Source of the DNA: Gammaproteobacteria bacterium
Lineage (GTDB): Bacteria; Pseudomonadota; Gammaproteobacteria; Pseudomonadales; Pseudohongiellaceae
Reading direction: 5' to 3'
DNA length: 64,000 nucleotides
Assembly (NCBI GenBank): GCA_030682575.1
Contig: JAUXNX010000003.1
Span: 62,001 to 126,000 of the forward strand
Part shown: positions 8,844 through 32,514 of the stretch, piece by piece
How positions within the stretch are numbered: the stretch's first letter is position 1
Layout of the letters: each line of letters begins with the position of its first letter
Position numbers and translations under genes: made by a program
The notes under the pieces: model-generated
Told to the model about the DNA's origin: nothing
What the model saw: the letters and a program-made list of their open reading frames with translations, nothing else
Database searches by the model: none

Positions 8844-9764
8844 TTGCAGTTTATCCTGGAAATCAAAGCAAAGCTGAGTCGCTGGCTGAGCACAAACTTT
8901 CCCAAGTTGCATGAGCGCCTGCCCGCCTTCGTACAACTGACACGTCTGGACAGACCGATCGGCGTCTATCTGTTGCTATGGCCCACTCTCAGCGCCTTGT
9001 GGATTGCCGCGCAGGGCTGGCCGGATCTCCACCTGCTTCTCATCTTTGTGCTCGGTACATGGCTGATGCGCTCGGCCGGCTGTGCGATCAATGACTTTGC
9101 CGACAGCAATTTTGACGGTAGCGTCTTGCGGACTCGTAATCGCCCGATCATTTCCGGCCGAGTAAAGCGTCATGAAGCACTCATTACCTTTGCTGTGCTG
9201 TGTGCCATCGCATTCATCCTGCTGCTCTTCACTAACACACTGACAATTCAGTTGTCTTTCTTTGCTGTTTTCATCGCAGCTCTGTATCCCTTCATGAAAC
9301 GCTTCACGAATCTTCCTCAAGTTGTGCTGGGCATCGCCTTCTCGTGCGGAATACTCATGGCATTTACCGCGCAACTTGGCGAACTGCCACCGCAGGCGTG
9401 GCTGTTGTTTGTGGCCAATTGCCTCTGGACCGTGGCCTATGACACGCAGTACGCGATGGTCGATCGCGAATACGATTTGCAGATAGGGGTCAAGTCGACC
9501 GCCATTCTGTTCGGAGATGCTGACAAGGTAATGATCGGTACGCTGCAGGGCATGTTTGTGCTGGCGATGCTGTTGGCCGCTGCACAGTTGGATCTGGGGT
9601 TGTGGTTCTATCTCGGATTGTTGGCGGCAGTGGGAATGTTTGTTTGGCAGCAGCGCCTTATCCGCGACCGCGAACCAGATGGTTGTTTCAGGGCATTTCT
9701 GAATAACCACTGGGTGGGGGCGGCCATCTTCGGCGGTATCTTCCTGCACTTCTTGTTCAACTGA
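8844..9764 (+). CDS. ubiA: 4-hydroxybenzoate polyprenyltransferase
   Basis: Integral membrane enzyme that prenylates 4-hydroxybenzoate in ubiquinone synthesis. I place the start at TTG 8844, preceded by GGAGAG with 8 nt spacing, giving 306 residues, close to the family length. An open frame extends further upstream but without conserved sequence. Both Asp-rich motifs are present: [11 protein letters not shown] near residue 85 and [13 protein letters not shown] near residue 200. Several hydrophobic helices follow the prenyltransferase pattern. Divergent from HU. Confidence 0.93.
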
Positions 9765-9770
9765 CGCACT

Positions 9771-10958
9771 TCAACTAAACGCCTGAATACCCGTCTGTGC
9801 ACGCCCCAGAATCAGCGCGTGAATATCCTGGGTGCCTTCGTAGGTATTTACCACTTCCAGATTCTGCAAATGACGCATCACCGGGAACTCATCGGAGATC
9901 CCGTTGCCACCGAGCATATCCCGCGCCTCGCGAGCCGTGTCCAGCGCCTTCAGGCAGGAGTTGCGCTTGAGCAACGAGATCAGCGGTGGCGACAGTTTGT
10001 TCTCGTCACGCAAGCGCGAACCCTGCAGACAACCGAGCAGACCAAGAGAGATGTCGGTCTGCATGACAGCCAGTTTCTTCTGAATCAATTGATTCGCCGC
10101 CAGCGGGCGATCGAACTGCTTGCGATCCAGCGTGTACTGCAACGCTGTCTTCCAGCAGGTCTCTGCGGCACCCAGGGCGCCCCACGCAATGCCCAGACGC
10201 GCAGAGTTCAGACAACTGAACGGCCCCTTCAAGCCTTTCACATTCGGCAGCATGTTCTCCGATGGCACAAAGACGTTATCCATGACGATCTCGCCAGTGA
10301 TCGATGCGCGCAACGCAAGCTTGCCCTCGATCTTCGGTGCAGACAGCCCCTTCATTCCTTTCTCCAGAATGAAGCCGCGGATCTCACCGGCATCGTCCTT
10401 CGCCCACACCACGAACACGTCGGCGATCGGCGAGTTGCTGATCCAGTTCTTCGCACCAGTCATGCTGAAGCCACCATCAACTGTGCGCGCGCGCGTCACC
10501 ATGCCACCTGGATCGGAGCCATGGTCCGGCTCTGTCAGACCGAAACAGCCGATCCACTCACCCGTCGCGAGCTTCGGCAAATATTTTTGTTTCTGCTCTT
10601 CCGAGCCAAAGGAATAGATCGGATGCATGACGAGACTGGACTGCACGCTCATCATGGAGCGATAGCCAGAATCCACCGCCTCGACTTCGCGAGCCATCAG
10701 ACCGTAACAAACGTAGTTCACTCCGGCACAACCATAGCCATGCAGTGTTGCGCCCAGCAGACCCAGCTCTCCCATTTCGCGGAAGATCGCGGGGTCGGTG
10801 TATTCCTTCCGATAGGCCTCACGCACGCGGGGCAGGAGCTTCTCCTGAGCGTACTGATGAGCCGTGTCGCGAACAAGGCGCTCCTCTTCGGTGAGCAGGT
10901 CGTTCATCAGGAAGGGGTCCTGCCAATTGAATTTGGCAGAATCTGAGCTGGCGGACAT
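9771..10958 (-). CDS. gcdH: Glutaryl-CoA dehydrogenase
   Basis: FAD enzyme of lysine/tryptophan and aromatic degradation, oxidising and decarboxylating glutaryl-CoA to crotonyl-CoA. It starts at ATG 10958 behind AGGAG; an in-frame ATG at 10991 lacks a ribosome site. The 395-residue product has the acyl-CoA dehydrogenase fold with [47 protein letters not shown] and the catalytic-Glu segment [20 protein letters not shown]. The Arg-containing N-terminal segment [20 protein letters not shown] is typical of GcdH. It ends 7 nt from convergent ubiA. Confidence 0.92.
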
Positions 10959-10987
10959 GGGAACTCCTGGTTCTGGTTGTCGTCGGA

Positions 10988-11010
10988 TCAAGGGGTCAGG
11001 TTCCTTGATC
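10988..11010 (+). repeat. Single copy of the REP-like arm
   Basis: The 23-nt string beginning TCAAGGGGTCAGG and ending TTCCTTGATC matches the left arm of the palindrome at 11094-11194. It lies in the gcdH leader region. Probably a solo half of the same repeat family. Confidence 0.6.
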
Positions 11011-11093
11011 CCTTGATCGTTAATAGAGCGGCCGTTCAGGACAGTTGCCGCATCTTAGCAAGCGCGTCCTCATAAACAAAGCCCGCCTCGGAA

Positions 11094-11194
11094 GCATGGG
11101 GTCAAAAAATCAAGGGGTCAGGTTCCTTGATCATTCCATGGATCAAGGAACCTGACCCCTTGATTTGTGACCCCTTGATTTTTTGACCCCATGC
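11094..11194. repeat. REP-like long palindrome in front of uvrD
   Basis: Left arm 11094-11132 and right arm 11141-11194 are reverse complements, apart from a 15-nt duplication-like insertion (a second CCCCTTGATT unit) in the right arm. The centre is 8 nt. The core GGGGTCAGGTTCCTTGATC resembles repeats mobilised by REP-associated (RAYT) transposases in proteobacteria. That assignment is by recollection of motif style. No transposase is nearby. Confidence 0.75.
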
Positions 11195-11200
11195 TACAAT
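11192..11200 (+). promoter_or_regulatory. Extended -10 element for uvrD
   Basis: TGCTACAAT fits the extended -10 pattern TGnTAnAAT. Initiation about 7-9 nt after the hexamer would fall at or just before the uvrD ATG at 11209, implying a leaderless or nearly leaderless mRNA. There is no Shine-Dalgarno before that ATG. No clear -35 is visible at the right spacing, and extended -10 promoters can do without one. Confidence 0.5.
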
Positions 11201-11208
11201 CCCGCGCC

Positions 11209-13401
11209 ATGGACGTCTCATACCTTCTCGACTCACTCAACGAACCGCAACGCCAGGCCGTCGCAGCTCCCGCCAACAACCTGCTGGTACTCGCCGGGGC
11301 CGGCAGCGGCAAGACCCGCGTACTCGTACATCGCATCGCCTGGCTGATGCAGATCGAGGGGGTCTCGCCCTTCAGCATTCTCGCCGTGACCTTCACCAAC
11401 AAGGCTGCCCGCGAGATGCGTCATCGTATCGAACATCTCCTGGGGCAATCGCTCGGCGGCATGTGGGTGGGCACCTTCCACGGCCTCGCGCATCGATTGC
11501 TGCGCATGCATTACCGCGAAGCCAACCTGCCGGAGAACTTCCACATTCTCGACAGCGACGACCAGTTGCGACTGATCAAACGCCTGTGCAAGAACCTCGG
11601 ATTGGACGAGGAGCGCTGGCCACCGCGCCAGTGCCAGTGGTACATCAACTCGCAAAAGGACGAAGGCCTGCGCGCCAAGCACATCGAGCACTTCGGCGAC
11701 GAATACACCCGCAACATGCTCAGTCTGTACACCGCTTATGAGGACGCCTGCCAGCGCGGCGGCATGGTCGACTTCGGCGAGATCCTGCTGCGCGCCCACG
11801 AACTTTGGCTGAACAATCCGCAGATCCTGCAGCACTACCAGCGCCGCTTTCAGCACATCCTGGTGGACGAGTTCCAGGACACCAATACCATCCAATACGC
11901 CTGGTTGCGCGTGCTCGCGGGCAAGGACAATCACCTGATGGTGGTTGGCGACGATGACCAGTCCATCTACGGCTGGCGCGGCGCGAAGATCGAGAACATC
12001 CAGCGCTTCAATCAGGATTTCCCCGGCGCCGACATGGTAAGGCTGGAGCAGAACTACCGCTCCACCTCCAACATCCTCAAGGCTGCCAACAAGTTGATCA
12101 GCAACAATCAGGGGCGTCTGGGCAAGGAGCTGTGGACCGACGGCAGCGAGGGCGAAGCGATCTCCCTCTACGAAGCCTTCAACGAACAGGACGAGGCGCG
12201 CTTCATCGTCGAACGTTTGCAGAGCTGGCTCAACACCGGCAATCGTCTCTCGGATGCCGCCATCCTGTATCGTTCCAACGCCCAGTCCCGCGAGTTGGAA
12301 GATGCGTTGCTGCGCGTGGGGTTGTCCTATCGCATCTATGGCGGCCATCGTTTCTACGAGCGCCTCGAAATCAAGAATGCACTGGCGTATCTGCGCCTGC
12401 TGGTAAATCGTCACGACGACACCGCCATGGAGCGCGTCATCAATACCCCAACAAGAGGCATCGGCGATCAGACGCTGGAGATCCTGCGCGGCGTGGCACG
12501 GAAAGAAGACATTTCATTGTGGGCCGCTTCGGAGAAATGCCTGAGTCACGGCCTGCTCACTGGCCGCGCCTCCAGTGCCGTACAGAAGTTCATGGAACTG
12601 ATCGGCCAGTTGCACCGCGAATGCGACGCCCTCGCGCTGGCGAAGAAGGTCGAGTATGTGATTACTCACAGCGGCCTGATCCCCCACCACGAGAAGGAAG
12701 GTGGCGAGAAAGCCGCGGGCCGCATCGAGAACCTGCAGGAACTCGTGAGCGCTGCCGGCGGCTTCGACGAACTCGATCCGGACGCAGAAGTCATGGCCAT
12801 CGAGTCGATGGCGTTTCTCGCCGCATTCCTGGATCAGGCCTCACTGGATGCCGGCGAAGGCCAGGCCAGCGAATCCGATGACGCCGTGCAACTGATGACG
12901 CTGCACTCCGCCAAGGGTCTCGAATTCAGATTGGTGTTTCTCGCAGGCATGGAGGAAGGCCTGTTTCCCCACAAGATGTCGATGGACGGACTGGCCGGGC
13001 TCGAAGAAGAGCGCAGGCTCTGCTATGTCGGCATCACCCGCGCGATGACCAAGCTCTACCTCACCCATGCCGAGTCGCGACGCCTGCACGGCGAAGTCAA
13101 CATCACGCGGCCCTCACGGTTCATCCGCGAGATTCCGGCAGATCTTGTCGAGCACGTGCGCATAAAATCCTCGATCATCAGACCCTCAGCATTCTATGGT
13201 CGCCCTGCTCCTTCGTTGGTGCAGGACGACATCCCTGACACCGGCATCAGCCTGGGCTCCCGCGTGCGCCACGGCAAGTTTGGCGAGGGCGTGGTGCTCA
13301 ACTGCGAAGGTCACGGTGCCAATGCCAGGGTACAGGTGAACTTCCACGATGCGGGCAGCAAGTGGCTGGCGTTGTCTTACGCTAAGCTGGAAGTGATGTA
13401 G
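11209..13401 (+). CDS. uvrD: DNA helicase II UvrD
   Basis: SF1 3'-5' helicase of nucleotide excision and mismatch repair. The start at 11209 gives MDVSYLLDSLNEPQRQAVAA, which matches the known UvrD N-terminus; an ATG at 11191 lies inside the repeat. The 730-residue product has Walker A LAGAGSGKT, VDEFQDTN, GDDDQSIYGWRGA, RLEQNYRS, TLHSAKGLEF and VGITRA in order. The C-terminal Tudor-like tail (RVRHGKFGEGVVLNCEGHG) is also present. No LexA-type box was seen upstream. Confidence 0.97.
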   Translation: MDVSYLLDSLNEPQRQAVAAPANNLLVLAGAGSGKTRVLVHRIAWLMQIEGVSPFSILAVTFTNKAAREMRHRIEHLLGQSLGGMWVGTFHGLAHRLLRMHYREANLPENFHILDSDDQLRLIKRLCKNLGLDEERWPPRQCQWYINSQKDEGLRAKHIEHFGDEYTRNMLSLYTAYEDACQRGGMVDFGEILLRAHELWLNNPQILQHYQRRFQHILVDEFQDTNTIQYAWLRVLAGKDNHLMVVGDDDQSIYGWRGAKIENIQRFNQDFPGADMVRLEQNYRSTSNILKAANKLISNNQGRLGKELWTDGSEGEAISLYEAFNEQDEARFIVERLQSWLNTGNRLSDAAILYRSNAQSRELEDALLRVGLSYRIYGGHRFYERLEIKNALAYLRLLVNRHDDTAMERVINTPTRGIGDQTLEILRGVARKEDISLWAASEKCLSHGLLTGRASSAVQKFMELIGQLHRECDALALAKKVEYVITHSGLIPHHEKEGGEKAAGRIENLQELVSAAGGFDELDPDAEVMAIESMAFLAAFLDQASLDAGEGQASESDDAVQLMTLHSAKGLEFRLVFLAGMEEGLFPHKMSMDGLAGLEEERRLCYVGITRAMTKLYLTHAESRRLHGEVNITRPSRFIREIPADLVEHVRIKSSIIRPSAFYGRPAPSLVQDDIPDTGISLGSRVRHGKFGEGVVLNCEGHGANARVQVNFHDAGSKWLALSYAKLEVM

Positions 13402-13535
13402 TAACCCTCTGGAACGTCCTGCCCGCCGAATCCCGAATCCTGATCTATATTCATATGGAGAAAAACCCGGAAAGTTTTACTCCCCTTTTTGGTAGCTGCG
13501 AGCATGCTTCCCAAATAGGGAATCTGGATGGAGTC

Positions 13536-13604
13536 ATGAAAGTCTTGGGACGAGACAAACTCAGCAAATTTCCTGCCAGGGAATCGAGCGAAATTCAACA
13601 TCAA
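13536..13604 (+). pseudogene. Remnant of a HigB-type toxin gene
   Basis: A short frame from ATG 13536 reads MKVLGRDKLSKFPARE, like the start of HigB (RelE-superfamily host-inhibition of growth toxin). About 50 nt on, in another frame (from 13591), the DNA reads FNIKGN, the conserved C-terminal piece of the same family. The middle of the gene is therefore missing and the ends are out of frame. Identification is by memory of family patterns, without an alignment. Confidence 0.5.
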
Positions 13605-13606
13605 AG

Positions 13607-13818
13607 GTAATCAAGACCGATGCCCAGCACGCAGCAGCACTTGCGCGGCTGATGACATTAATGAAGGCCGAGCCTGTAGAAGCGATCAAAAGCATGATTC
13701 ACAGGCTGAATGAAGGGTTGGGAATTCCGTTGGATTTACTGTTGCAGGAAGACCACCTGACTTCGCCTAGCGAAACACTTCCATCGACATCATCCGCGCG
13801 TGCGTCCGTTCAGTAAGC
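13607..13818 (+). pseudogene. Remnant of a HigA-type antitoxin gene (internal deletion)
   Basis: The frame without a usable start codon reads IKTDAQHAAALARLMTLMKA and, a few residues on, MIHRLNEGLGIPLDLLLQE. In intact HigA proteins the first piece is the N-terminus and the second is the end of the helix-turn-helix domain. The 60 or so residues between them (the DNA-binding helices) are absent here. It directly follows the HigB remnant, in the natural toxin-antitoxin order. The 3' end overlaps the convergent diiron oxygenase gene. Confidence 0.55.
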
Positions 13819-14753
13819 AAACCAACCGCTTTCATATTGATGAACAATTGTCGGAAGCGGTTACGATTGATCTCCGGATGACGGATGCGGTACTGACGCA
13901 AGTGGTGACGCAGAGCGGCGACATCCCAGCCGTATTTTTCCGCGATACGTGTATAAACGTTCAGGGAGTTGGCAAGACGCAGCACGTTATCAAGGACGAA
14001 GTCACTGCGCTCTGCAAGCTCCACACTGCTCAACTCCCTGAGATGTTCCTTGAGAAATTCCACGCCGAATTTGACGTGCCGTGCTTCGTCCGCTGCGATG
14101 TAATCAATGGCGAAAGCCAGCACGGGTACTCGCGTGTACTGGCGTATTTCCTGGAACTTCGCCATCGCCAGACTCTCGATCAGAATCTGACACGCGATGA
14201 ATTTCATGTCCCAGCGCGGATCGTCCACCATGGTCTGAATGAGACGTCTCAACTCGTTGCTTGGGGGATGAATCTCTCCGACGATTTCGTGCAGATAACG
14301 TGAGAAAAACTCCACATGGCGTGCCTCATCAAATACCTGAGAACTGGCAAACAGCTTGGCCTCGACCGTAGGCATGCATGACACGAGTTGCGAGGATACC
14401 AGCAGCGCGCCCTGCTCCCCATGCAGTATCTCGCTGATTTCCAGCGCGTGTCGCCACCAGCTGATGCGGCATCTGTCGCTTTCCGCGAGTGCGTCATAGG
14501 CGGAGAATCCATGCATCGGTTCGCCTTCATCCAATGTCGGAAATGGGTGATTGTGATTGGAATCCTGCCAGGGTACGTCACTACGAGCATTCCACATTCT
14601 GGCTTTGGCGAGTTCGTAGAGACTGTGTATGCGACCAGGCTCTTCTTCATATTTCCACAAAATGCTTCCATGTATCTTTGTCGAAAAATCACTGCGCTGC
14701 TGCACTGAACTTTCACTTGGTATTCGGTTGTTCCTCATATCCTTGATCATCAT
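13767..14753 (-). CDS. Ferritin-like diiron oxygenase
   Basis: 328 residues with the complete diiron ligand pattern of ferritin-like oxygenases: Glu113, Glu143 and His146 (DEARH), Glu193, Glu223 and His226 (second DEARH). This fold is shared by AurF-type N-oxygenases, R2-like oxidases and acyl-carrier-protein hydroxylases/desaturases; which reaction applies cannot be told from motifs. It starts at ATG 14753 behind AGGGAACGG. The gene is divergent from an acyl-AMP ligase/ACP operon, 132 nt away. This suggests that it oxidises the acyl chain on that carrier protein or the final product. The substrate is inferred. Confidence 0.75.
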   Translation of the reverse strand: MMIKDMRNNRIPSESSVQQRSDFSTKIHGSILWKYEEEPGRIHSLYELAKARMWNARSDVPWQDSNHNHPFPTLDEGEPMHGFSAYDALAESDRCRISWWRHALEISEILHGEQGALLVSSQLVSCMPTVEAKLFASSQVFDEARHVEFFSRYLHEIVGEIHPPSNELRRLIQTMVDDPRWDMKFIACQILIESLAMAKFQEIRQYTRVPVLAFAIDYIAADEARHVKFGVEFLKEHLRELSSVELAERSDFVLDNVLRLANSLNVYTRIAEKYGWDVAALRHHLRQYRIRHPEINRNRFRQLFINMKAVGLLTERTHARMMSMEVFR

Positions 14754-14837
14754 CCGTTCCCTGGATAGCTTACTGATGACTCCAGTATAGACAGCAACTG
14801 GAACTCTGCCATGTGCTTCCTTGTCGTTTTCCAGTTG

Positions 14838-14861
14838 TTGGTCTAAATTGAATCAGACCAA
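14838..14861. promoter_or_regulatory. Inverted repeat between the oxygenase and the acyl-ligase operon
   Basis: TTGGTCT (14838-14844) and AGACCAA (14855-14861) are exact reverse complements separated by 10 nt, in the only intergenic gap of the cluster. The spacing and position fit an operator controlling one or both divergent transcripts. No regulator gene lies next to it and no clear -35/-10 pair was found. Confidence 0.4.
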
Positions 14862-14885
14862 GGATAGATACAAGGATGTGTCGCC

Positions 14886-16562
14886 ATGCCAACCAGGGAC
14901 CGGGACCTGATATCCCTTCTCGAAACGCAAGTCACCCGTTACTCCGACAGCACACTGTATACCTTTCTGAACAAGGATATCTCCAGTGTGGCGAACCTGA
15001 CATATGTGAATGTGTACGAACGGGCAATTGTCATTGCTGCCGCGCTGCAGCAACGCGGACTGCAGAAGTCGCCTGTGGCATTGCTCTATCCGCACGGCCC
15101 GGATTTTATCGTCGCATTTCTGGCCGCCATCCTCGCAGGCGCATGGCCGATGCCTCTTACCAGACCGCGTGGTCAGGAATGGTCCAGCGTTTTCCATACC
15201 GTGGTGATCAGCGGCGCAGACACTGTCCTTACGCTCTCCAGGACGAAGAAGATGATTCCGGAAACGCTGCTGGTTGCCAGTAAAGTACAAGTCATGTGTA
15301 CGGATACTTCGGAGCTGCCCTGCGATGTGCAGAGGTGGCAACGTCCGGATGTCCAGCTCCACGACATTGCCTTCATTCAGTACACCTCAGGCTCCACGTC
15401 ACGTCCCCGCGGAGTCATCGTGACACACGAAAATGTTCTGCATAATTCCGCGAGCATCAAGCACAGTTTTGGTTGTTCCGCGCAGGAAGTCTGTGTGTCC
15501 TGGCTGCCCTTCCATCACGACATGGGGTTGATCGGGCATATCATCCAGCCCCTTTACGCCGGAATGCCCAATTATTTTCTTTCACCAGCGGATTTTCTCG
15601 GCGATCCGCAACGCTGGCTGAGCGCGATCTCCCGCTACAGAGGCACGATCAGTGGTGCGCCGAATTTCGCATATGCCCTGTGTGCCGAAAGAAACCATTC
15701 GCCAGACATCGAGAACAACCTGGATCTGAGCAGTTGGCGTCTGGCTTACTGTGGATCCGAAAGAATCGTGTCGGCTGTGCTGAAGCGATTCGCACGTGTG
15801 TTCAGAAAAGCGTCTTTCAACGAGAGCGCATTCTTTCCCTGTTATGGAATGGCGGAATCAACACTGTTTGTATGTGGCCAGCACGAGCTTTCCTCTCCGC
15901 AGGACGGACCTTACCCCGCAGTGGGAGCAGTCACGGACAACGACAGCATTGCCATCGTCGATCCTGCAACTCTGGACCGATTGCCCGAAGGTGAAACCGG
16001 CGAAGTCTGGATCAAGTCCTCATCTGTTTCACCAGGCTACTTTCGTGATCCGAAAGCGACACGAGAGATTTTTCATCAGAACCTGAATGGCATAACCGGT
16101 TACATGCGAACAAGTGACATCGGTTTTATCAGAGACAACGCACTGTATTTTGTTGGTCGTCTAAAGAACCTCATCAAGCGCCGTGGCCGCTCCTTCCATG
16201 CCGAAGACATTGAGGAGCGTGTAGAAAGCGCGCTGATTGAACGGGGAATCAAACGGTGTGCGGCATTTGCAATCGCTGGCAACGAAGAAGATGCCCTGGT
16301 GCTGCTGCTTGAGCACGATGGGTCGACCTGCGAGTCCCTGTTGACCACCGTGCCAGAGGATGCACGTGCGTTGGTATGTGATGCGCTCGGCATCGTGCCG
16401 GAGTTCGTACATATAGTCCCCAAACGGAGTCTGCCCCTGACTACCAGCGGCAAACTGCAGCGAGCAATTTGCAGGGACCACTTTCTTCAATCCAGACAGA
16501 CATTGATCAACGAGAGGGAATTCGCTCAGGCGGACAGGGAGTTGTTGCATGCATCAAAATGA
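14886..16562 (+). CDS. Fatty-acyl-AMP ligase (FAAL)
   Basis: 558-residue adenylate-forming enzyme. The phosphate-binding motif QYTSGSTSRPRGVIVTHENV is near residue 165, followed by the FAAL-type WLPFHHDMGLIGHI near 206. Others are CYGMAEST, SPGYFRD, and a C-terminal catalytic region with TTSGKLQRA. FAALs activate free fatty acids as acyl-adenylates and pass them to a carrier protein rather than to CoA. The next gene encodes such a carrier, with which it overlaps by 14 nt. It starts at ATG 14886 behind AAGGA. First gene of a five-gene operon. Confidence 0.88.
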   Translation: MPTRDRDLISLLETQVTRYSDSTLYTFLNKDISSVANLTYVNVYERAIVIAAALQQRGLQKSPVALLYPHGPDFIVAFLAAILAGAWPMPLTRPRGQEWSSVFHTVVISGADTVLTLSRTKKMIPETLLVASKVQVMCTDTSELPCDVQRWQRPDVQLHDIAFIQYTSGSTSRPRGVIVTHENVLHNSASIKHSFGCSAQEVCVSWLPFHHDMGLIGHIIQPLYAGMPNYFLSPADFLGDPQRWLSAISRYRGTISGAPNFAYALCAERNHSPDIENNLDLSSWRLAYCGSERIVSAVLKRFARVFRKASFNESAFFPCYGMAESTLFVCGQHELSSPQDGPYPAVGAVTDNDSIAIVDPATLDRLPEGETGEVWIKSSSVSPGYFRDPKATREIFHQNLNGITGYMRTSDIGFIRDNALYFVGRLKNLIKRRGRSFHAEDIEERVESALIERGIKRCAAFAIAGNEEDALVLLLEHDGSTCESLLTTVPEDARALVCDALGIVPEFVHIVPKRSLPLTTSGKLQRAICRDHFLQSRQTLINEREFAQADRELLHASK

Positions 16563-16827
16563 GATCGACATGAAATCAGATGAGATCAGGGTTGCCGTCA
16601 TGGCCCTGCTGCGCGAGGCGGGTCAGGATGAAATTGAACCTGTGCTCAGCTCACACCTGGGAGCGCTGGGCCTGGACTCATTGAAACTGGTGGAAATAAT
16701 CTTTGCTCTGGAAACTCGCTTCGCGGTCGTGGCAGACGAGGAACTGATGGCGGAACTGAACACCGTAGGAGATCTTGTCGACATGATCCAGCAGGCGTGT
16801 GCGACACGGCATGCAGGAACAGTGTGA
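16549..16827 (+). CDS. Acyl carrier protein
   Basis: 92-residue stand-alone carrier protein. The attachment site is GLDSL with Ser44, modified by 4'-phosphopantetheine in this family. It is preceded by the acidic helix I region, and ends in a short tail. The start at 16549 overlaps the FAAL stop; an alternative start is ATG 16570, which would remove seven residues. The coupling with FAAL upstream and an acyltransferase downstream suggests a dedicated carrier, separate from fatty acid synthesis. Confidence 0.88.
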   Translation: MHQNEIDMKSDEIRVAVMALLREAGQDEIEPVLSSHLGALGLDSLKLVEIIFALETRFAVVADEELMAELNTVGDLVDMIQQACATRHAGTV

Positions 16828-16837
16828 GGACAGCCAT

Positions 16838-18226
16838 ATGGACAACAGCGCACTCACTGGCGTGCCGGACGCACAGCTGGAGTGGCCCTCATGGCCAACT
16901 CCCGCACAACTCTCGTTGATAGCCCCACCCACCGTCAGGCAGATGATGATGAATGCCGGTCTCTGTCTGCAGTATGGCGAGTATTTCAGGTCCATGGAAT
17001 TCTGTTGTTCCGCGATAGAAGGACTGCTGGCGTTGCGTGTTGAATCCGTCACCCGATCCGTGCGGCAGCAGTTACCTGCGCTTGATCCGGGAGTGCGAAT
17101 CGTGCACACGGAACTGGGCTTTCGAGTAGAGCTCGTCAGAACCGAATATGGAGAACAGGAATGTGCCTCAGTGCTGCGCTACGGACTTCTGCTCCACAAT
17201 GCTCTGACGGGAACCTTCAGCACTGACTCGAAGGAGAGCCATCTGATTCGCTGCACGATCACTGAGCGGTTTCTGTTGGCATTGCAGAGTTTTTCCAGAA
17301 AGAACCTTGTCTCCTGCTATCCATTGAGCACAAGAAAGGCTGTGTTGCGTGCATTTCTGCGACTGCGCATTGCGCTTGAGAGACGCCTGCCATCGATGCA
17401 GGCGGTGGAGGTACTGCAGACAAGATTTCTCGCTCTTCTCCTTCATGAGCCTGAACAGGTTGCACGGGCAATACTGAGAGAGTTTCGTTTCCACAGCGAA
17501 TACAACTTCGCCAAGCGTCATCTTCATCTGCACGGATTGCCCGGCAGTCAACAGTATCTGGAGTCCTTCGTGTGGCCGGAGAAGGAGGACTACATTGCGT
17601 ACATCGCCGCGCAGCCGGGATCACGCGTCCTGGTTACGATTCACATGGGAGACTTTCTTGGCGCGTTCAGGTGTATCGCCGCGCTTGCCAATCCCCGGCG
17701 TGGCGCGATCTCGCTGAGACGGGAACAGGAAACCGACAGGGAGAAGGACTACCGCGTTGGCGAGCGGCTCGATCACAAGGTCTTGCGTCATGGTCAATAC
17801 AACCCGATCAGCATAGTTGGTGCGCTGCGCAAGGGCGATCACACTTTGGCAATTCTCTTCGATCTGAGAGATGAATTTGGTGAAACCGTCGCTGCCCGTT
17901 TTTTCGGTCATCAAGCGCGCTTCGTGAAGGGACCAGCCCAGCTCGCGATCATGGGCAAGGCACCCATACTCCCCTTCGTTACCTTTGAAAGGAACGGTTG
18001 CAATCACATCGAGTTGGAGACCGTCATCGATACTCGCCTGTTATCTGCAGAGTCTCTGATGGACGCTACATCCAGGATCACGCAACAACTCGTGACTCTG
18101 GCTGAAAAGTGGATCTGCCGTACGCCAGAGCAATGGAAGTACCTCAACTCCCTCCCAGGCTACTTCGAGCGTTCGGCGGACTCACCGCAACGCGATGATC
18201 TATCACTGCAAGGGAGGTTCGAATGA
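16838..18226 (+). CDS. LpxL/HtrB-like acyltransferase
   Basis: 462 residues; start at ATG 16838 behind GAGGACAG (an ATG at 16799 inside the ACP gene is less likely). The first half (to about residue 190) is unrecognised. The second half resembles the LpxL/HtrB lysophospholipid acyltransferase fold: VLVTIHMGDFLGAFRCIA (His269), AILFDLRDEFG, AARFFGHQARFVKGPAQLAI and PILPFVTFERNG. Relatives take acyl groups from acyl-ACP. The usual HX4(D/E) acid is not at the canonical spacing: His is followed by MGDFL, so the acid sits three residues away. No transmembrane helix is obvious. It probably transfers the acyl chain to an unknown acceptor. Confidence 0.65.
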   Translation: MDNSALTGVPDAQLEWPSWPTPAQLSLIAPPTVRQMMMNAGLCLQYGEYFRSMEFCCSAIEGLLALRVESVTRSVRQQLPALDPGVRIVHTELGFRVELVRTEYGEQECASVLRYGLLLHNALTGTFSTDSKESHLIRCTITERFLLALQSFSRKNLVSCYPLSTRKAVLRAFLRLRIALERRLPSMQAVEVLQTRFLALLLHEPEQVARAILREFRFHSEYNFAKRHLHLHGLPGSQQYLESFVWPEKEDYIAYIAAQPGSRVLVTIHMGDFLGAFRCIAALANPRRGAISLRREQETDREKDYRVGERLDHKVLRHGQYNPISIVGALRKGDHTLAILFDLRDEFGETVAARFFGHQARFVKGPAQLAIMGKAPILPFVTFERNGCNHIELETVIDTRLLSAESLMDATSRITQQLVTLAEKWICRTPEQWKYLNSLPGYFERSADSPQRDDLSLQGRFE

Positions 18227-19461
18227 GTCATGAATTGTTTCGCCGGGAGGCAGTGAGCGCCTGCACGGATTCGCGACATGGCCATCACATTTTCCACCAA
18301 CCAATCTCCGTGCGCATCGCGGTGATTGGCGTCACTCTGATATTCCTTGCGTTCGTTGTCTTCGCCGCACTGGCCAGGGTGAAGCAGACGGAGCTTGTCA
18401 GAGGGCATCTGACTCCTGTCGAGGGAGAGATCAAGGTCTACAGCGACAGTCCGGGAATCTTCAGAGAGATTCACGGCAATGAAGGGCAGCACGTGCACAG
18501 AGGCGACATTCTCGCTACCGTGCTCCACCCCCGACATGACGCAGGTGGAAGGCAGTCCAGTCTCGTCCTGCTGGAACACACAGACCAGCAGATCTCACAA
18601 CTGCAGGAGAGGATGATCGCTTTGAAGGAGCGCGCGTTGATCGCCGAAGAACAAACTCTCGCGCGCATTGCCGGGCTTGGCAGAGAATTGATGCTGATGC
18701 AGGAAGAGTATGAGGTTGTCCTGAAGCGTCTCGACATCGCGGAGGAGGAGTACAGAAGCAGTTTGATTCTGTTGGATCGCAATTCCATCTCAAGCCGCGA
18801 ACACAATCAGACCGCATCTGCCTGGTACTCTCTTCTGCAGATGAGCAAGGGCGCGCGATTGAACATGGAAGGCAGGAAGCTCGCTCTGGAGGAGGCCAAC
18901 CAGCAACTTTCGATGCAACCATTGACGTTGAGGGACGAACTGCTGGGAATCCAGAATGGCATCTCGCAGCTACGTGCCCATCGCGACGAACTGAGCTTGC
19001 AGGGGTTGTTCGCCATCACGGCGCCTGCAGAGGGCACTCTTGCCAATGTCATTTCCCGCGTCGGCGATACTGCTGATCCACGCATCCCCTTCGCCACTCT
19101 TGTGCCAGTGAACCATGTTCTGGAGGCACGACTGTATCTGCCGTCACGCTCGGTAGGTGAGGTGGCAATCGGTCAGGATATCCTGCTTTCCTACGATGCT
19201 TACCCTTATCAAACTCACGGTACGTTTGCGGCAACGATTGTCAGCGTCTCGACGACCACCATGGATCCCCGGGAGTTTCTGATTCCCCTGGAATTGAACG
19301 AGCCGGTGTACCTCGTCCACGCACAGATTGCACAGCAGGGTGTTGGCACCGGGATACGACTTCGACCCGGCATGCATTTCACCGCCGAGATCGTTACCGG
19401 CAGCAACAGCCTTCTTGAGCGGTTGATCGCTCCTCTGAGCAGTCTGGGTCGAAAGTTATGA
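18223..19461 (+). CDS. HlyD/CvaA-type membrane fusion protein
   Basis: 412-residue periplasmic adaptor of a type I-like exporter. A single transmembrane helix spans about residues 30-51 (IAVIGVTLIFLAFVVFAALA). A first biotinyl/lipoyl-like half follows (IFREIHGNEGQHVHRGDILA), a long coiled coil (about 115-260), and the second half with ITAPAEGTLANVISRVGDT. The N-terminus (SHELFRREAVSA) and domain layout match colicin V adaptor CvaA. Its ATG overlaps the acyltransferase stop (ATGA) and its stop overlaps the start of the peptidase-ABC gene. Confidence 0.87.
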   Translation: MSHELFRREAVSACTDSRHGHHIFHQPISVRIAVIGVTLIFLAFVVFAALARVKQTELVRGHLTPVEGEIKVYSDSPGIFREIHGNEGQHVHRGDILATVLHPRHDAGGRQSSLVLLEHTDQQISQLQERMIALKERALIAEEQTLARIAGLGRELMLMQEEYEVVLKRLDIAEEEYRSSLILLDRNSISSREHNQTASAWYSLLQMSKGARLNMEGRKLALEEANQQLSMQPLTLRDELLGIQNGISQLRAHRDELSLQGLFAITAPAEGTLANVISRVGDTADPRIPFATLVPVNHVLEARLYLPSRSVGEVAIGQDILLSYDAYPYQTHGTFAATIVSVSTTTMDPREFLIPLELNEPVYLVHAQIAQQGVGTGIRLRPGMHFTAEIVTGSNSLLERLIAPLSSLGRKL

Positions 19462-21554
19462 TTGATGCTCTCTTTCGACCCCGGCATTCACTGCCAACCA
19501 TTCTGCAATCAGAACGTGCAGAATGCGGACTGGCTTGTATCGCCATGGTGTCGAGTTGGTTCGGGCGGCGCATTGATCTCAACACCCTGCGTCGTGAGTA
19601 TCCGATCTCTGCACGAGGAGCCAGTCTCAGCGACATTCTCAACATCGCCACTGCGCTTGATCTGAACACCCGTCCTTTGAAAGTGGAACTGCAGGACTTG
19701 CAAAGTCTGCAATTGCCCGCCGTACTGCACTGGGACATGACACACTTCGTCGTTGTGAAAAAGGTCACGGCATCTGCCATCGTGATTCACGACCCTGCAG
19801 TGGGCGAGCGGCGCTACAGCATGGCTGAGGTGAGTCGTCACTTCACCGGCATTGCAGTCGAGTTCTCGCCAGGAGTTGCGTTCAAATCGCAAACTCAACT
19901 GATGCGATCCAGATTAATCGACCTGTTCGAGCGCTATCCCGGCTTCCATACCGCAGTGACCCAACTGTTTCTCCTGTCGCTGTTGTTGCAACTCGCGTCG
20001 ATCGGCAGCGCGTTCTATATGCAACTGGTTATCGATGAAGGGCTGGCAAAGCAGGATCGTGATTTTCTGACCGTGCTGGCCATAGGGTTTTTCATGCTCG
20101 GAATGACTACAGTCGCAATGACTTACGCGCGCGCCCAGGTTCAGCTCTATTTCTCCAACCAGTTGGGTTTTCAGATGGTGAGCAATGTCTTTCATCATCT
20201 GATCAGCCTGCCGGTGGAGTACTTCGAGAGGCGACATGTCGGCGATCTGGTATCACGCTTCGGTTCCATTCGCGAGATTCGCCGCATCATCACGGAGGAT
20301 TTGATCACCGTTGTGCTCGATGGTCTCTTCGCGCTGCTGACGCTGGCCGTGATGTTCTACTTCAACGTCATGCTGGCGTCAGTGGTGCTCGTGTTTGTCA
20401 CCATCGTCACTGTCTTCAAGATTGCGTTGATTCCGAAGATTCAGGTGTTGCAAGAGCAGAAGATTGTCGCGGACGCAGTGACCAGCACCAACCTCATGGA
20501 GAACATGCGTACCATCGAGATCATCAAGTTCTACTGCCGCGAACTGCCGAGGATCATGCTTTGGCGTAACTACTATGCCGATCAGATCAACACCAATGTG
20601 GTACTGACCCGCTTCACGATCAATATAGATGCCGTCTACGGCTTGCTGTTCGCACTGGAGAATGTGCTGGTCGTTTATCTGGCGGCGATGCTGGTTCTGG
20701 AAGGACAGATCACTCTCGGTTTTCTCACTGCTTTCGTTGCACTCAAGGGCAACTTCTCATCTTCTATCCGTTCCTTCATAGAAAAGATTGTGCAGATCAG
20801 ACTGGTGAAACTGCAACTCGAACGTGTCTCCGATATCACCTGCACTGAGCGCGAATTCGACAACTTGTATCTGCCCAAGCTGCGCCAACCCGTGCAGGGC
20901 GCTCTCACGTTGGAGAATGTGTCTTACACCTATCCGGGCACTACCACGCCAGTTTTGCAGAGCATCGATCTCGATATTGCCGCTGGCGAGATCATTGCCA
21001 TTGTCGGACCGTCGGGTTCGGGAAAATCCACGCTGATGAAAATCATGGCAGGGCTGTTCCGGCCGAGCTCGGGCACACTAAAGGTGGACAGCCAGGATGT
21101 GCAGCAGTTCGGCATGCGGCAATACCGCAGTGCCTGCGCTGGCATACTGCAGACCGACCAACTGTTGTCCGGCACGATCATGGACAACATCACGCTGTTC
21201 GATGAGGAGGTCGATCACGCACGACTGCAGCGCGCCGGACACATGGCCCGCATCGATCAGTTCATTCAGACACTGCCAATGGGCTACAACAGCATGATTG
21301 GAGATATGGGCTCCATCATGTCGTCGGGGCAGGGCCAGAGGATTCTGCTGGCAAGGGCGTTCTACAAAACTCCACGCATACTCTTTCTTGACGAGGCCAC
21401 CGCGAATCTTGATCCGGAGACCGAAGCTGCCATTCTGGACGAGATAGTTGCCATGAAGACCACTGTAATCTTCATCACGCATCGCAAGGCGCCGTTGGCG
21501 ATTGCGAACCGGGTGTTCACCTGCGCCGATGGGAGAATTGACGAAGTCAGCTGA
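19458..21554 (+). CDS. C39 peptidase-containing ABC exporter (CvaB-like)
   Basis: 698-residue bacteriocin-type exporter. The N-terminal C39 domain has Cys23 (QSERAECGLACIAM), His96 (LHWDMTHFVVV) and Asp112 (VIHDPAVGERR), so it should cleave leader peptides after a double-glycine site. Six-helix membrane domain follows, then the ATPase with Walker A GPSGSGKST (about 517-525), signature MSSGQGQRILLARAF (canonical LSGGQ is altered) and Walker B ILFLDEATANLD. Pairs with the upstream adaptor. The cargo is not encoded next to it. Confidence 0.9.
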   Translation: MIDALFRPRHSLPTILQSERAECGLACIAMVSSWFGRRIDLNTLRREYPISARGASLSDILNIATALDLNTRPLKVELQDLQSLQLPAVLHWDMTHFVVVKKVTASAIVIHDPAVGERRYSMAEVSRHFTGIAVEFSPGVAFKSQTQLMRSRLIDLFERYPGFHTAVTQLFLLSLLLQLASIGSAFYMQLVIDEGLAKQDRDFLTVLAIGFFMLGMTTVAMTYARAQVQLYFSNQLGFQMVSNVFHHLISLPVEYFERRHVGDLVSRFGSIREIRRIITEDLITVVLDGLFALLTLAVMFYFNVMLASVVLVFVTIVTVFKIALIPKIQVLQEQKIVADAVTSTNLMENMRTIEIIKFYCRELPRIMLWRNYYADQINTNVVLTRFTINIDAVYGLLFALENVLVVYLAAMLVLEGQITLGFLTAFVALKGNFSSSIRSFIEKIVQIRLVKLQLERVSDITCTEREFDNLYLPKLRQPVQGALTLENVSYTYPGTTTPVLQSIDLDIAAGEIIAIVGPSGSGKSTLMKIMAGLFRPSSGTLKVDSQDVQQFGMRQYRSACAGILQTDQLLSGTIMDNITLFDEEVDHARLQRAGHMARIDQFIQTLPMGYNSMIGDMGSIMSSGQGQRILLARAFYKTPRILFLDEATANLDPETEAAILDEIVAMKTTVIFITHRKAPLAIANRVFTCADGRIDEVS

Positions 21555-21610
21555 TACAGGTAATTCTAACGTGACCGACTCCGGTAAGTTGGTACTTGAG
21601 GAGAACTCCC

Positions 21611-21853
21611 ATGAAGACCATGCAGGCCACTGACGCCAAAAATCATTTTGGTGAATTGCTTGAAGATATTGCCAGCGGTCCTGTATTGATCCAGTACAAC
21701 GGTCAAGATGCCGCCGTCATCATGTCCTTCGCGGAATACGAACGTTGCTTTCTGACCGCCTCCAGCAAGGAATTCGTCAAGCGCCATCACGAAGAAAGTA
21801 TCGAACGCTTCGGCCCGCTATACGACGCCCTCAGCTCCACTTCAAAAAGTTGA
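21611..21853 (+). CDS. Phd/YefM-type antitoxin, no toxin partner
   Basis: 80 residues starting MKTMQATDAKNHFGELLEDI, the classic Phd/YefM N-terminal fold, at ATG 21611 behind AGGAGA. Antitoxins of this family bind DNA through the N-terminus and a toxin through the C-terminus. No Doc, YoeB or RelE gene follows; the convergent amidohydrolase gene overlaps its 3' end by 23 nt. It may be an orphan, or act with the RelE-like toxin 1.8 kb downstream (unlikely, since that has its own CopG partner). Confidence 0.8.
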   Translation: MKTMQATDAKNHFGELLEDIASGPVLIQYNGQDAAVIMSFAEYERCFLTASSKEFVKRHHEESIERFGPLYDALSSTSKS

Positions 21854-29029: not shown

Positions 29030-30721
29030 TCAGACAAAACTCAGTATCAGATACACCGCCAGCAGAATGGTCACCCACTTCACCATGCTGCCAACCGGAT
29101 GCGTACTGGCGAGAAAGCCCTGCGGTCCCAGTTGTCTGGCCAGCACTGGCGAAAGCAACGCGATCCTGTCCACGAACGCAGAGTTGAGCGCACCGATGCT
29201 GCCCATGCGCGCGAATACGCCGCGCAACAGCGTCGGGCAAAGGCGACGATACACCCACTCCACATCAAGGTTTGTCGAGCGCAGCTCGGGCGGATACATG
29301 CCCCGCAGGTTGAGCCACACGAATGCGAGCGCGGAGAAGAACAACAGCTGTGTCTGCGCCAGCACGTGTGTCGCGTCGTAAGGACTGTAGCCGGTGTCGT
29401 ACGGCAACAGACCATAGAGCACTGAAGGGTACACACCAATGGTTACGCACAGCACGGCGGCGATGAACATCGCCAGCTGCATGTTCAGTGGCGGGTCGGA
29501 CACGCGGATGCCGGAGTCGTGGGCGAAGAATGCGAAATACGGAATCTTGATGCCCGCGTGGTGGAACACGCCCGCCGATGCGAACAACAGCATCAACCAG
29601 ATCCAGTCATAGCCTTCCTCGATCGCGGCACTCATCACCATCGACTTGCTGACGAAACCGCTGAACAGCGGGAACGCCGAGATCGACGCCGCGCCAATGA
29701 TGCAGAAGATCGTCGTGCGCGGCATGGTCTTGTAGAGTCCGCCGAGATCAGAGCCATTGATGCGCCCGGTCATGTGCAGCACCGCGCCCATCGACATGAA
29801 CAGCAACCCCTTGAAGATGATGTCGTTGAAAGCGTGCGACACGGCTCCGTTGATGGACAGCGCGGTGCCGATGCCAATTCCCACCACCATGAAGCCGACC
29901 TGGTTGATGAGGCTGTAGGCGAGCACGCGGCGCAGATCATTCTCGATCACTGCAAAGAAGATAGGAAAACAGGCCATCGTGGCGCCGACATAAACCAGCA
30001 GCTCCGTTCCAGGATAAGCGCGCGCCAGACAGTACACGGCGACCTTGGTGGTAAATGCGCTGAGAAATACGGTGCCGGTTGGAGTTGCTTCCGGATATGC
30101 ATCGGTGAGCCAGTTGTGCAGAAAGGGAAACGCACACTTCACACCAAACGCGAACAGGATCAGCCAACCAGCCACGCTGCCAGTGCCGATCTGTGCAAAA
30201 TCCAGAGACCCGGTTGCAGAAGCGTGAAACAGAATGCCGACCAGCAGCACAACCCCGGAGAGCACCTGAATGATCAGGTAACGAAGCCCCGCATAATAGG
30301 AGCGCGTCGTGCGCCTTGCCCAGACGAGAAACACCGAGGTCAGTGCGAGCAATTCCCAGAACACGAACAGCGTCAGCAGGTCTCCTGCGAACACCGCGCC
30401 AAGTGCGCTGCCCGCGTAAAGAAGACCGGCGAGTTGCTGCACAGTGTCGCGCACATGCAGCGCATACAGAATCGCGATGAACGCGGCAATGTGAAAGGCG
30501 AAGCCGAAAATCAGGCTGAGTTTGTCGACGCGATACGGCACCAGTTCATAGCCCAGAAACGCCAGCTGCAAGTGCGCGCCTTCGGGCACAGTCAGCAGAT
30601 GCAATCCGCCAAGCACCGGCGCAATCAGCATGATCGCATTGCGCACATTGCCGCGCGTCAACAGCGCGAGTACTGCCGCGATGAAGAACGGCACGAAGGG
30701 AGGCAGCTCAGTGGCCCACAT
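29030..30721 (-). CDS. mrpD: Mrp-type antiporter subunit D-like membrane protein (third copy)
   Basis: 563 residues with about 14 hydrophobic helices of the NuoL/M/N (proton-translocating NADH-quinone oxidoreductase) family. Landmarks are LLTLFVFWELLALTSVFLVW with the conserved Glu of helix 5, FGVKCAFPFLHNWLTDAYPE with the helix 7 Lys, and HAFNDIIFKGLLFMSMGAVL. It is the last gene of the antiporter operon and overlaps the small upstream gene by 14 nt. It is longer than the two other D-like subunits because of an extended C-terminal tail. Confidence 0.85.
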   Translation of the reverse strand: MWATELPPFVPFFIAAVLALLTRGNVRNAIMLIAPVLGGLHLLTVPEGAHLQLAFLGYELVPYRVDKLSLIFGFAFHIAAFIAILYALHVRDTVQQLAGLLYAGSALGAVFAGDLLTLFVFWELLALTSVFLVWARRTTRSYYAGLRYLIIQVLSGVVLLVGILFHASATGSLDFAQIGTGSVAGWLILFAFGVKCAFPFLHNWLTDAYPEATPTGTVFLSAFTTKVAVYCLARAYPGTELLVYVGATMACFPIFFAVIENDLRRVLAYSLINQVGFMVVGIGIGTALSINGAVSHAFNDIIFKGLLFMSMGAVLHMTGRINGSDLGGLYKTMPRTTIFCIIGAASISAFPLFSGFVSKSMVMSAAIEEGYDWIWLMLLFASAGVFHHAGIKIPYFAFFAHDSGIRVSDPPLNMQLAMFIAAVLCVTIGVYPSVLYGLLPYDTGYSPYDATHVLAQTQLLFFSALAFVWLNLRGMYPPELRSTNLDVEWVYRRLCPTLLRGVFARMGSIGALNSAFVDRIALLSPVLARQLGPQGFLASTHPVGSMVKWVTILLAVYLILSFV

Positions 30722-31031
30722 GATGATCCTCCTCGCCTGTCATGCTGTTACTGACGGACTCATCAAGGCGACGCTGCTCTTCGCGGTCGTAATAGTCTTC
30801 GTCACGCATCAGGAACGTGCGCATCCATTTGGCGATCACCACCAGTACTACACAGCCGACGAAACCATACATCGGATAGAACGCCCACAGGTTTTCCCAC
30901 GAGTGATACGTGTAGCGGTTGATCACAAAATCCAATACGACCAGAATCGCGCAGCATGCGTAAAACACGTTCATCAGACGTTTGACATTGGCGGGCTTGT
31001 CGAAGAAATAGGTTTTTTCCGAATTCATCAT
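30708..31031 (-). CDS. Small two-helix membrane protein of the antiporter operon
   Basis: 107 residues. Two hydrophobic helices (LMNVFYACCAILVVLDFVIN and MYGFVGCVVLVVIAKWMRTF) are followed by a charged cytosolic tail (MRDEDYYDREEQRRLDES). It starts with tandem ATGs at 31031/31028 behind GGAGA. It lies between two subunit D genes and overlaps the last one. I do not recognise it as one of the canonical A-G subunits; it is likely an accessory or assembly subunit. Confidence 0.75.
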   Translation of the reverse strand: MMNSEKTYFFDKPANVKRLMNVFYACCAILVVLDFVINRYTYHSWENLWAFYPMYGFVGCVVLVVIAKWMRTFLMRDEDYYDREEQRRLDESVSNSMTGEEDHHVGH

Positions 31032-31041
31032 GATTCTCCGA

Positions 31042-32514
31042 TTACTCCAGAATGGCCGAAGCAAGTTCGTACAGTGGCTGCGGATAGACGAACAGCACGA
31101 CACACATCAAGGCGGTGACCGATATCGCCAGCAGGGAAGGCAGCGGCGCTTCGTGCAACTTCGGCCTGTTCTCTCCATCAACAGGAACGGGGAAGAACGC
31201 CATGATCGGAATCGGCATCAGGTAAGCGATGTTCAGCAATGAGCTGAGCATCAACACACCCATGATGACGAGCTGACCGGAATCCAGTGCGCCGGTCAAC
31301 AAGTACCACTTGCTCCACGTGCCACCACCGGGCGGTAAACCAATGATGCTGAGGGTGCCGATCAGGAATGCGATCATCGTCACTGGCATCTGCCAGCCAA
31401 TGCCGCGCAGCTCACTCACGCGGGTCTTGTGCAGCGTGACAAGAATCGCACCGGCACAGAAGAACAGCGTGATCTTGCCGAACGCATGCATGGCGATATG
31501 CATTGCACCACCGAGCAATCCCGCTTCCGACGCCAGCAACATGCCAGCAGTGATGTAGCTGAGCTGACTCACGGTGGAGTAGGCCAACCGCTTCTTCAAA
31601 TTGTCTTGGCGCATCGCGATCAGTGACGCGATCAACACGGAGGCACCTGCGAGATACAGCAGCCACTGTGTGGTGGGCAACACGCTGAGGAAGTCCAATC
31701 CGAAGATGAACGCACCCAGCTTGAGCAGCGTGAACACCCCCGCCTTTACCACTGCCACCGCATGCAGCAACGCACTCACCGGCGTAGGCGCCACCATCGC
31801 GGCAGGCAGCCAGCGATGAAACGGCATGATCGCTGCCTTGCCGACACCGAACACAAACAACACCAACAGTCCCCCTGCGATCACGGGTGAAGTGCCAGCC
31901 GGGAACACACCACCTGGCGTGAACTCCAGAGATCCGGCCACGGCAAAGGTGCCAAGTATCGCGAACAGAAAGAACAGGATCGACGTGCTGAGCAGAATGC
32001 CAAGATACGTGCGGCCGCCACGCTTTGCTTCTTCAGTTCCTGCGTGAGTCACCAGCGGATAAGTCGAAAGCGTCAACACCTCGTAGAATATGAACAGTGT
32101 GAACAGATTCGCTGAGAACGCGATGGCGAACACACTCGCAATTGCCACTGCGAAGCAGGCATAGAAGCGCGTCTGATTCTTCTCGTGATGGCTGCGCATG
32201 TAACCGATGGCATAGACAATTGTCACCAGCCAGAGAAAGCCCGCTACCAGAGCGAACAACATGCCGAGCGCTTCCAGACGGAACGCAATCGAAAGACCCG
32301 GCAGCATTTCAATCCAGGTAACGGCAATCTGCCCGCCAGACTTGAAGCTGCCATACAGACTCAGCACCAGCACCAGGACGATCAGGCTCGCACCGATCGA
32401 TACACCCTCACGCAGGTTCGGGAAGCGATCTGCGGCGAAGATGCCGACCACTGCCAATGCGGGGATCAGCATGATCAGTTGCAACACCAGTTCGGGAGCA
32501 AACCAATTGTTCAT
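31042..32514 (-). CDS. mrpD: Mrp-type antiporter subunit D-like membrane protein (second copy)
   Basis: 490-residue NuoN/M-like subunit. Conserved pieces are NLFTLFIFYEVLTLSTYPLV (Glu), FGVGKAAIMPFHRWLPAAMV (Lys) and IAMHAFGKITLFFCAGAIL. Its start overlaps the end of the next D gene by 4 nt. Family members form the ion path of multisubunit Na+/H+ antiporters and of complex I. Confidence 0.87.
   Translation of the reverse strand: MNNWFAPELVLQLIMLIPALAVVGIFAADRFPNLREGVSIGASLIVLVLVLSLYGSFKSGGQIAVTWIEMLPGLSIAFRLEALGMLFALVAGFLWLVTIVYAIGYMRSHHEKNQTRFYACFAVAIASVFAIAFSANLFTLFIFYEVLTLSTYPLVTHAGTEEAKRGGRTYLGILLSTSILFFLFAILGTFAVAGSLEFTPGGVFPAGTSPVIAGGLLVLFVFGVGKAAIMPFHRWLPAAMVAPTPVSALLHAVAVVKAGVFTLLKLGAFIFGLDFLSVLPTTQWLLYLAGASVLIASLIAMRQDNLKKRLAYSTVSQLSYITAGMLLASEAGLLGGAMHIAMHAFGKITLFFCAGAILVTLHKTRVSELRGIGWQMPVTMIAFLIGTLSIIGLPPGGGTWSKWYLLTGALDSGQLVIMGVLMLSSLLNIAYLMPIPIMAFFPVPVDGENRPKLHEAPLPSLLAISVTALMCVVLFVYPQPLYELASAILE

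Follow-up and report, generated by a model that had tools for sequence, protein, structure and literature searches.

A block of six genes in the window

The window, a 64,000-nucleotide stretch of contig C31 in a 3.7-Mb genome (G000), carries a block of six genes that opens with a ferritin-like, PF11583-related diiron oxygenase (13767-14753, minus strand; AurF, 44.9 bits), from which a 132-nt intergenic region (14754-14885), the presumed site of both promoters, leads to five genes on the plus strand. These encode a stand-alone fatty acyl-AMP ligase (FAAL; 14886-16562; PF00501, with NCBIfam FAAL models and FAAL crystal structures among its best matches), an ACP with the phosphopantetheine site LGLDSLKLVE (16549-16827; PF00550, 38.5 bits), an acyltransferase of the LpxL/PatA fold with an extra helical N-terminal domain (16799-18226; PF03279 together with alignments, a predicted model and a fold search), a HlyD-family periplasmic adaptor (18223-19461; Pfam HlyD_3 and NCBIfam), and a C39 peptidase ABC exporter (19458-21554; Peptidase_C39 at 118.5 bits, ABC membrane and ABC ATPase domains). 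The plus-strand genes overlap, in order, by 14, 29, 4, and 4 nt, the second overlap falling to 0 if the acyltransferase starts at the internal ATG at 16841, which is as plausible as 16799, and these overlapping ends suggest a single transcript. Promoter and terminator scans of the block performed no better than shuffles, and the divergent gap held a single weak promoter-like match, on the minus strand and not above shuffle level. No GNAT, HlyC, PKS, or NRPS was found among the six genes. The preliminary description had placed the same six genes at these coordinates, and all of the open reading frames were found there with their families matched by Pfam or NCBIfam; the 132-nt separation of the oxygenase and the tight coupling from FAAL to exporter were likewise confirmed, while the adaptor that it had called CvaA-like held at the level of a HlyD/type I adaptor and not as CvaA-like specifically. 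Directly 3′ of the exporter lies a Phd/YefM-type antitoxin gene (21596-21853, plus strand) with no evident toxin, and further along the window a minus-strand cluster of membrane proteins (29030-35346) resembles an Mrp-type Na+/H+ antiporter and coincides with a strong AT skew (0.24-0.26) at 30-34 kb.

At the level of sequence, the product of the first plus-strand gene fits a FAAL, an adenylate-forming enzyme that works with a free ACP, as its NCBIfam and PDB relatives include FAALs and a free ACP gene overlaps it downstream. The oxygenase has the ligand set E113, E143xxH146, E193, and E223xxH226, and such a set of 2 His and 4 carboxylates is the usual one of diiron hydroxylases. Its AlphaFold2 model (pLDDT 82) was nearest in fold to R2lox (R2-like ligand-binding oxidase), followed by CmlI, ADO (aldehyde-deformylating oxygenase), and stearoyl-ACP desaturase, with TM-scores of about 0.5 that make the superfamily alone certain. 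An AurF N-oxygenase (3-His/4-carboxylate) was rejected on account of an invariant Ile219 where the third His would be expected, four residues before the last Glu. A CylC-type dimetal halogenase, whose signature is QExxH and HxxDExxH (PMC12101540), was rejected as well, since the oxygenase homologues have DEARH and IxxDEARH, that is, D for Q and I for H.

The acyltransferase matches PF03279 (Lip_A_acyltrans, 33.2 bits) over residues 338-450 only, in its last third. Its AlphaFold2 model (pLDDT 85) assigned the C-terminal part of about 250 residues to the family fold, with Foldseek matches to PatA (E 1.6e-9) and LpxM (2.3e-7), and the N-terminal helical domain of about 200 residues gave no significant fold match. 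The HX4(D/E) catalytic motif is established for LpxL, LpxM, and PatA, and an LpxM E127A "catalytic residue" structure was among the fold-search matches. In place of this motif the acyltransferase has HMGDF(L/V/F) and variants in which the His and the Gly are invariant (19 sequences), and the fifth position after the His is L, V, F, or R and never D or E in 19 of 19.

The exporter is a peptidase-containing ABC transporter (PCAT) in which PF03412 (118.5 bits) is fused to the ABC domains, and the catalytic Cys, His, and Asp of its C39 domain align with those of PCAT1 (4ry2). It is the only C39-ABC exporter in its genome. Weak C39 domains in frames of about 340 residues also occur in this genome on contigs C8 (87031-87408) and C26 (41076-41456), and such frames are seen in many genomes of the family.

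Conservation of the block and detachability of the acyl module

A genome-neighbourhood search, which the preliminary description had proposed as a check, recovered all six genes in identical order and orientation in 17 genomes of aquatic, Pseudohongiellaceae-related gammaproteobacteria, the window's included (G000, G004, G005, G007-G011, G013, G016, G027, and G032, 12 in all, plus L079, L080, L081, L085, and L086), with the divergent oxygenase kept in 17 of 17. Among these genomes the identity of the acyltransferase to that of the window drops to 33-36% at the extremes and that of the exporter ranges from 58 to 85%; the same block persisting despite such divergent acyltransferases indicates a maintained unit, and the block is not a chance association. 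Close relatives of the acyltransferase were present in 10 of the 14 genomes of the genus (counting the window's own) and in 3 of the 22 other genomes of the family, and the nearest relatives that bear a name are genomes of gammaproteobacteria, Pseudohongiella among them (e.g., RIFCSPLOWO2_02_FULL_57_10, the isolate LSUCC0112 (L084), and the isolate Pseudohongiella sp. O18 (L085)). A search of genome contigs yielded 16 loci when the alignment served as query and none when a single sequence did. Wider spread was not upheld: across 369 genomes of the class, all matches were weak and resembled generic lipid acyltransferases, and no match occurred among 72,556 plasmids. One of the recovered loci (L087, CAMCRC010000081.1) is titled as a Klebsiella pneumoniae MAG; it has the locus of this lineage and groups with the window's genus, and the label is almost surely wrong.

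Three other arrangements bear on how the parts of the block belong together. G019, a fourth genome among those 22, has a more distant relative of the acyltransferase together with an oxygenase, a FAAL, and an ACP, all on one strand in the order oxygenase-FAAL-acyltransferase-ACP (L030), an arrangement that links the oxygenase with the acyl module. In L091 (ETNP8_MAG_37, 9488-13993) an operon made up of acyltransferase, HlyD, and C39-ABC lacks the FAAL, the ACP, and the oxygenase and has no recognised precursor nearby, suggesting that acyltransferase and exporter form a functional pair for which FAAL, ACP, and oxygenase supply a special donor. Lastly, four sister species of the same genus (G001, G003, G006, and G012) have HlyD and C39 beside the same carbonic anhydrase, with an exporter 57-60% identical and none of FAAL, ACP, acyltransferase, or oxygenase at the locus; these bare exporter loci are L159, L160, L161, and L162. 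The four species group as a single clade in trees of the exporter, the adaptor, and the carbonic anhydrase, and as the module is found in other genera of the family, their condition is most simply explained by one loss. The module is thus a detachable add-on to a peptide exporter. Two of the four (G003 and G012) share a double-glycine (GG) peptide family of their own (GG-RFxDxxPxFT...RD) elsewhere in the genome, and the retention of the exporter without the module implies that it has a use of its own, which argues against a mere lipid pump.

Double-glycine precursors and a candidate acceptor

Six genomes (L076, L083, L084, L087, L089, and L090) had precursor open reading frames with GG leaders at most 1.5 kb from the block, two of them in L083 and two in L084; the leaders follow a class II-type pattern, mostly E[I/M/V]xx[V/I][S/A/G]GG. 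Eight were counted in 45.6 kb of block flanks against 0.04 expected from dinucleotide shuffles, and none in the 125 kb further out in the same loci; one block-adjacent peptide, in L084, scored above the NCBIfam cut-off for class IIb bacteriocins. Next to the block of the window itself, neither strict nor relaxed leader patterns turned up a GG precursor. In L076, the nearest relative, the exporter is followed by a longer spacer with a second GG precursor, whereas the window has a shorter spacer and the Phd-type antitoxin gene instead.

A scan of the window's genome returned one convincing precursor, ...LTCEEIEQVSGG/LPFAIAPLAIGAAKVFGVSFVGAIGGAAGMSAYNYFTEDYEACSM, on contig C8 (214,643-214,900, minus strand; L092:9643-9900). 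A second leader pattern added no further convincing precursor, and matches to EIYYVSGG were rejected as precursors, being ATP synthase epsilon. The C8 precursor belongs to a family, preLPF, that is homologous to the block-adjacent precursors of G004, G005, and G007, in which membrane protein(s), precursor, and oxygenase are followed by the divergent run of FAAL, ACP, acyltransferase, HlyD, and C39, and then by carbonic anhydrase. Contig C8 repeats this layout of membrane genes, precursor, and carbonic anhydrase with no block between them, the block lying on C31 instead. The same split of precursor locus and block occurs in G010, whose precursor is 72% identical to that on C8, so that preLPF is unlinked to the block in the window's genome and in its nearest relative, in both of which the two membrane genes and the carbonic anhydrase accompany it. 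The interval from precursor to carbonic anhydrase (L092:9900-10648) has the appearance of an empty or vacated site of the six-gene block. Directly after the C8 precursor come two paralogous membrane proteins of 197 and 218 aa (L092:8505-9636, minus strand), homologues of which follow the precursor in L087, L089, L090, and L138; neither had a family match above cut-off, and they are candidate immunity genes.

Other module-bearing genomes carry other GG peptides, such as the EWWDPAGYY family of G008, G011, and G013, and the cores vary greatly in sequence, no one acceptor residue being invariant among them. Of 9 core families from genomes that have the module, 7 end in Ser, compared with 8.4% of 407 open reading frames from the same loci, and 8 of 9 have Ser or Cys within the last three residues against a background of 23%, an enrichment that is a post hoc observation. 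The two cores of the module-less sister species end in RD and the candidate core of the window's genome in ACSM; one family of peptides with a terminal Ser is found also in G023, a genome without the module. From these sequences, a Ser at or near the core C-terminus may be the acyl acceptor. Lys acylation was rejected as a general rule, since most cores have no Lys, and the same lack argues that acylation of the selidamide type on Lys is not general here.

Proposed pathway, rival readings, and known systems

We consider the block to be, with a probability of roughly 58%, a unit for the biosynthesis and export of a fatty-acylated GG-leader peptide resembling class II microcins and bacteriocins. 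The chemical steps, their order, the acceptor, the lipidation, and the activity are ones that we infer from gene content, homology, linkage, and residues. The FAAL would adenylate a fatty acid to acyl-AMP and load it onto the dedicated ACP; the divergent diiron enzyme would oxidise the chain by hydroxylation or desaturation, probably on the ACP; and the LpxL/PatA-fold acyltransferase would shift the acyl group from the ACP to a side chain in the precursor core, with a Ser near the C-terminus as the leading candidate. Next, the C39 domain would cleave the leader after the GG, and the ABC/HlyD pair, together with a housekeeping outer-membrane channel, would secrete the product, which in the window's genome may derive from the precursor on contig C8, unlinked to the block. 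The preliminary description had envisaged a fatty acid activated, oxidised on its carrier, joined to an acceptor, perhaps a peptide, and exported. This scheme fits the comparative evidence, and a peptide partner gains from the GG precursors near orthologous blocks and on contig C8, while acylation of that peptide, carrier-bound oxidation, and a lipid on the product keep their conditional standing.

In favour of the acylated-peptide reading we counted the synteny across 17 genomes, the clustering of precursors, preLPF, the sole C39-ABC exporter, the class IIb match, the module-less clade, L091, and the C-terminal Ser; against it we counted the lack of a precursor at the window's block, the diversity of the cores, the post hoc nature of the Ser enrichment, and an acyltransferase without the HX4(D/E) acid. 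Going further, these systems could constitute a new class of Gram-negative lipidated RiPP, in which an oxidised fatty acid from a dedicated FAAL-ACP-diiron set would be placed on a Ser at or near a microcin-like C-terminus by a repurposed lipid-A/PIM-type acyltransferase whose active site is altered and whose N-terminal domain would bind the peptide, and in which a general GG-peptide exporter would gain or lose the module as a cassette, the module acting in trans on unlinked precursors; we offer this fuller proposal tentatively and put it somewhat short of even odds.

The chief rival holds that the acyl module remodels lipids or lipid A of the producing cell, for instance as self-protection, and that bacteriocin peptides of the same operon leave through HlyD-C39 unmodified. 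Since both exporter and peptides exist without the module, its link to the peptides could be one of co-regulation only; LpxL/PatA relatives do acylate lipids, four sister species keep the exporter without the module (two of them with GG peptides), and the cores share no clear acceptor. We nevertheless regard lipid remodelling as unlikely, given that the acyltransferase gene overlaps that of the adaptor by 4 nt and in L091 accompanies HlyD-C39 alone, and that its large N-terminal domain and altered HxGxxx motif set the enzyme apart from its lipid-acylating relatives. Less probable by far is a small oxidised lipid or lipoamide, secreted by the exporter with no link to a peptide and with the nearby GG peptides incidental: several lipid natural products do start from a set of FAAL, ACP, and diiron enzyme (PMC8406957), but this reading has to contend with a C39 domain that has its catalytic residues, an exporter that persists where the module is missing, and a clustering of GG precursors at the block far in excess of chance. 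That the chain is halogenated rather than oxygenated, by a CylC-type enzyme acting on acyl-ACP, is most improbable, for the FAAL-ACP-diiron trio recalls cyl/noc clusters but the QExxH/HxxDExxH signature is absent from the oxygenase homologues.

Lipidation of ribosomal peptides, to return to the acylated-peptide reading, is reported to be very rare (PMC9505594), and the lipidated RiPPs found in the open-access literature are the GNAT-dependent selidamides, the lipolanthines and goadvionins, which are polyketide hybrids, and the nostolysamides (PMC9505594, PMC13060382). Selidamides and nostolysamides share with the proposed product a fatty acyl group on a GG-leader ribosomal peptide, and selidamide clusters include a peptidase-containing ABC exporter (PMC9505594, PMC13060382). 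Selidamides, however, rely on GNAT acyltransferases that act on Lys or ornithine, draw their fatty acids from primary metabolism, and involve lanthionine synthetases, whereas the block has neither GNAT nor LanM, most cores lack Lys, and a dedicated FAAL-ACP-oxygenase set stands beside an LpxL/PatA-fold enzyme; in place of a GNAT maturase, the acyltransferase is a PF03279 protein of the PatA/LpxM fold. The preliminary description had not recognised the gene combination as a known class, and we found no described system with it in the open-access literature, no mention there of "fatty acyl-AMP ligase" together with "double-glycine", and, in titles and abstracts, no FAAL and RiPP precursor in one pathway. 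The fatty-acylated RiPP examples found in that literature depend on GNAT enzymes or PKS/FAS hybrids, so that a route through FAAL, ACP, and an LpxL-fold enzyme would amount to a distinct solution and would offer genetically encoded attachment of a chosen fatty acid to a peptide. The six-gene combination provides a marker set for genome mining, and because species of a single genus naturally carry the same exporter with or without the module, acylated and unacylated bacteriocins could be compared directly.

Class II microcins and class IIb bacteriocins of the MccV and cerein 7B type resemble the system in their GG leaders, small hydrophobic cores, HlyD and C39-ABC proteins, and membrane proteins beside the precursor; a precursor accompanying the exporter, typical of class II, is found beside the block in relatives and on another contig in the window's genome. 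We know of no class II microcin with a FAAL, ACP, diiron oxygenase, or LpxL-type enzyme, and in MccE492 the C-terminal Ser is modified with a siderophore and not with a fatty acid. The RTX haemolysin system HlyC-HlyB-HlyD also brings acyltransferase, ABC exporter, and HlyD together, with acyl-ACP-dependent acylation before type I export. Its own features are a HlyC-family acyltransferase, a large RTX protein, and a degenerate C39-like domain, whereas the block has a C39 domain with catalytic residues, small GG peptides, and another acyltransferase fold, and none of the six proteins matched the HlyC family in Pfam or NCBIfam. Modules of the CylA-CylB-CylC type share a FAAL, an ACP, and a ferritin-like diiron enzyme with the block but are PKS-linked, and the block is without their halogenase signature. 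LpxL/LpxM and PatA share the fold of the C-terminal ~250 residues of the acyltransferase, which differs from them in having no acid five residues after the His, an extra N-terminal helical domain, and a peptide-export context.
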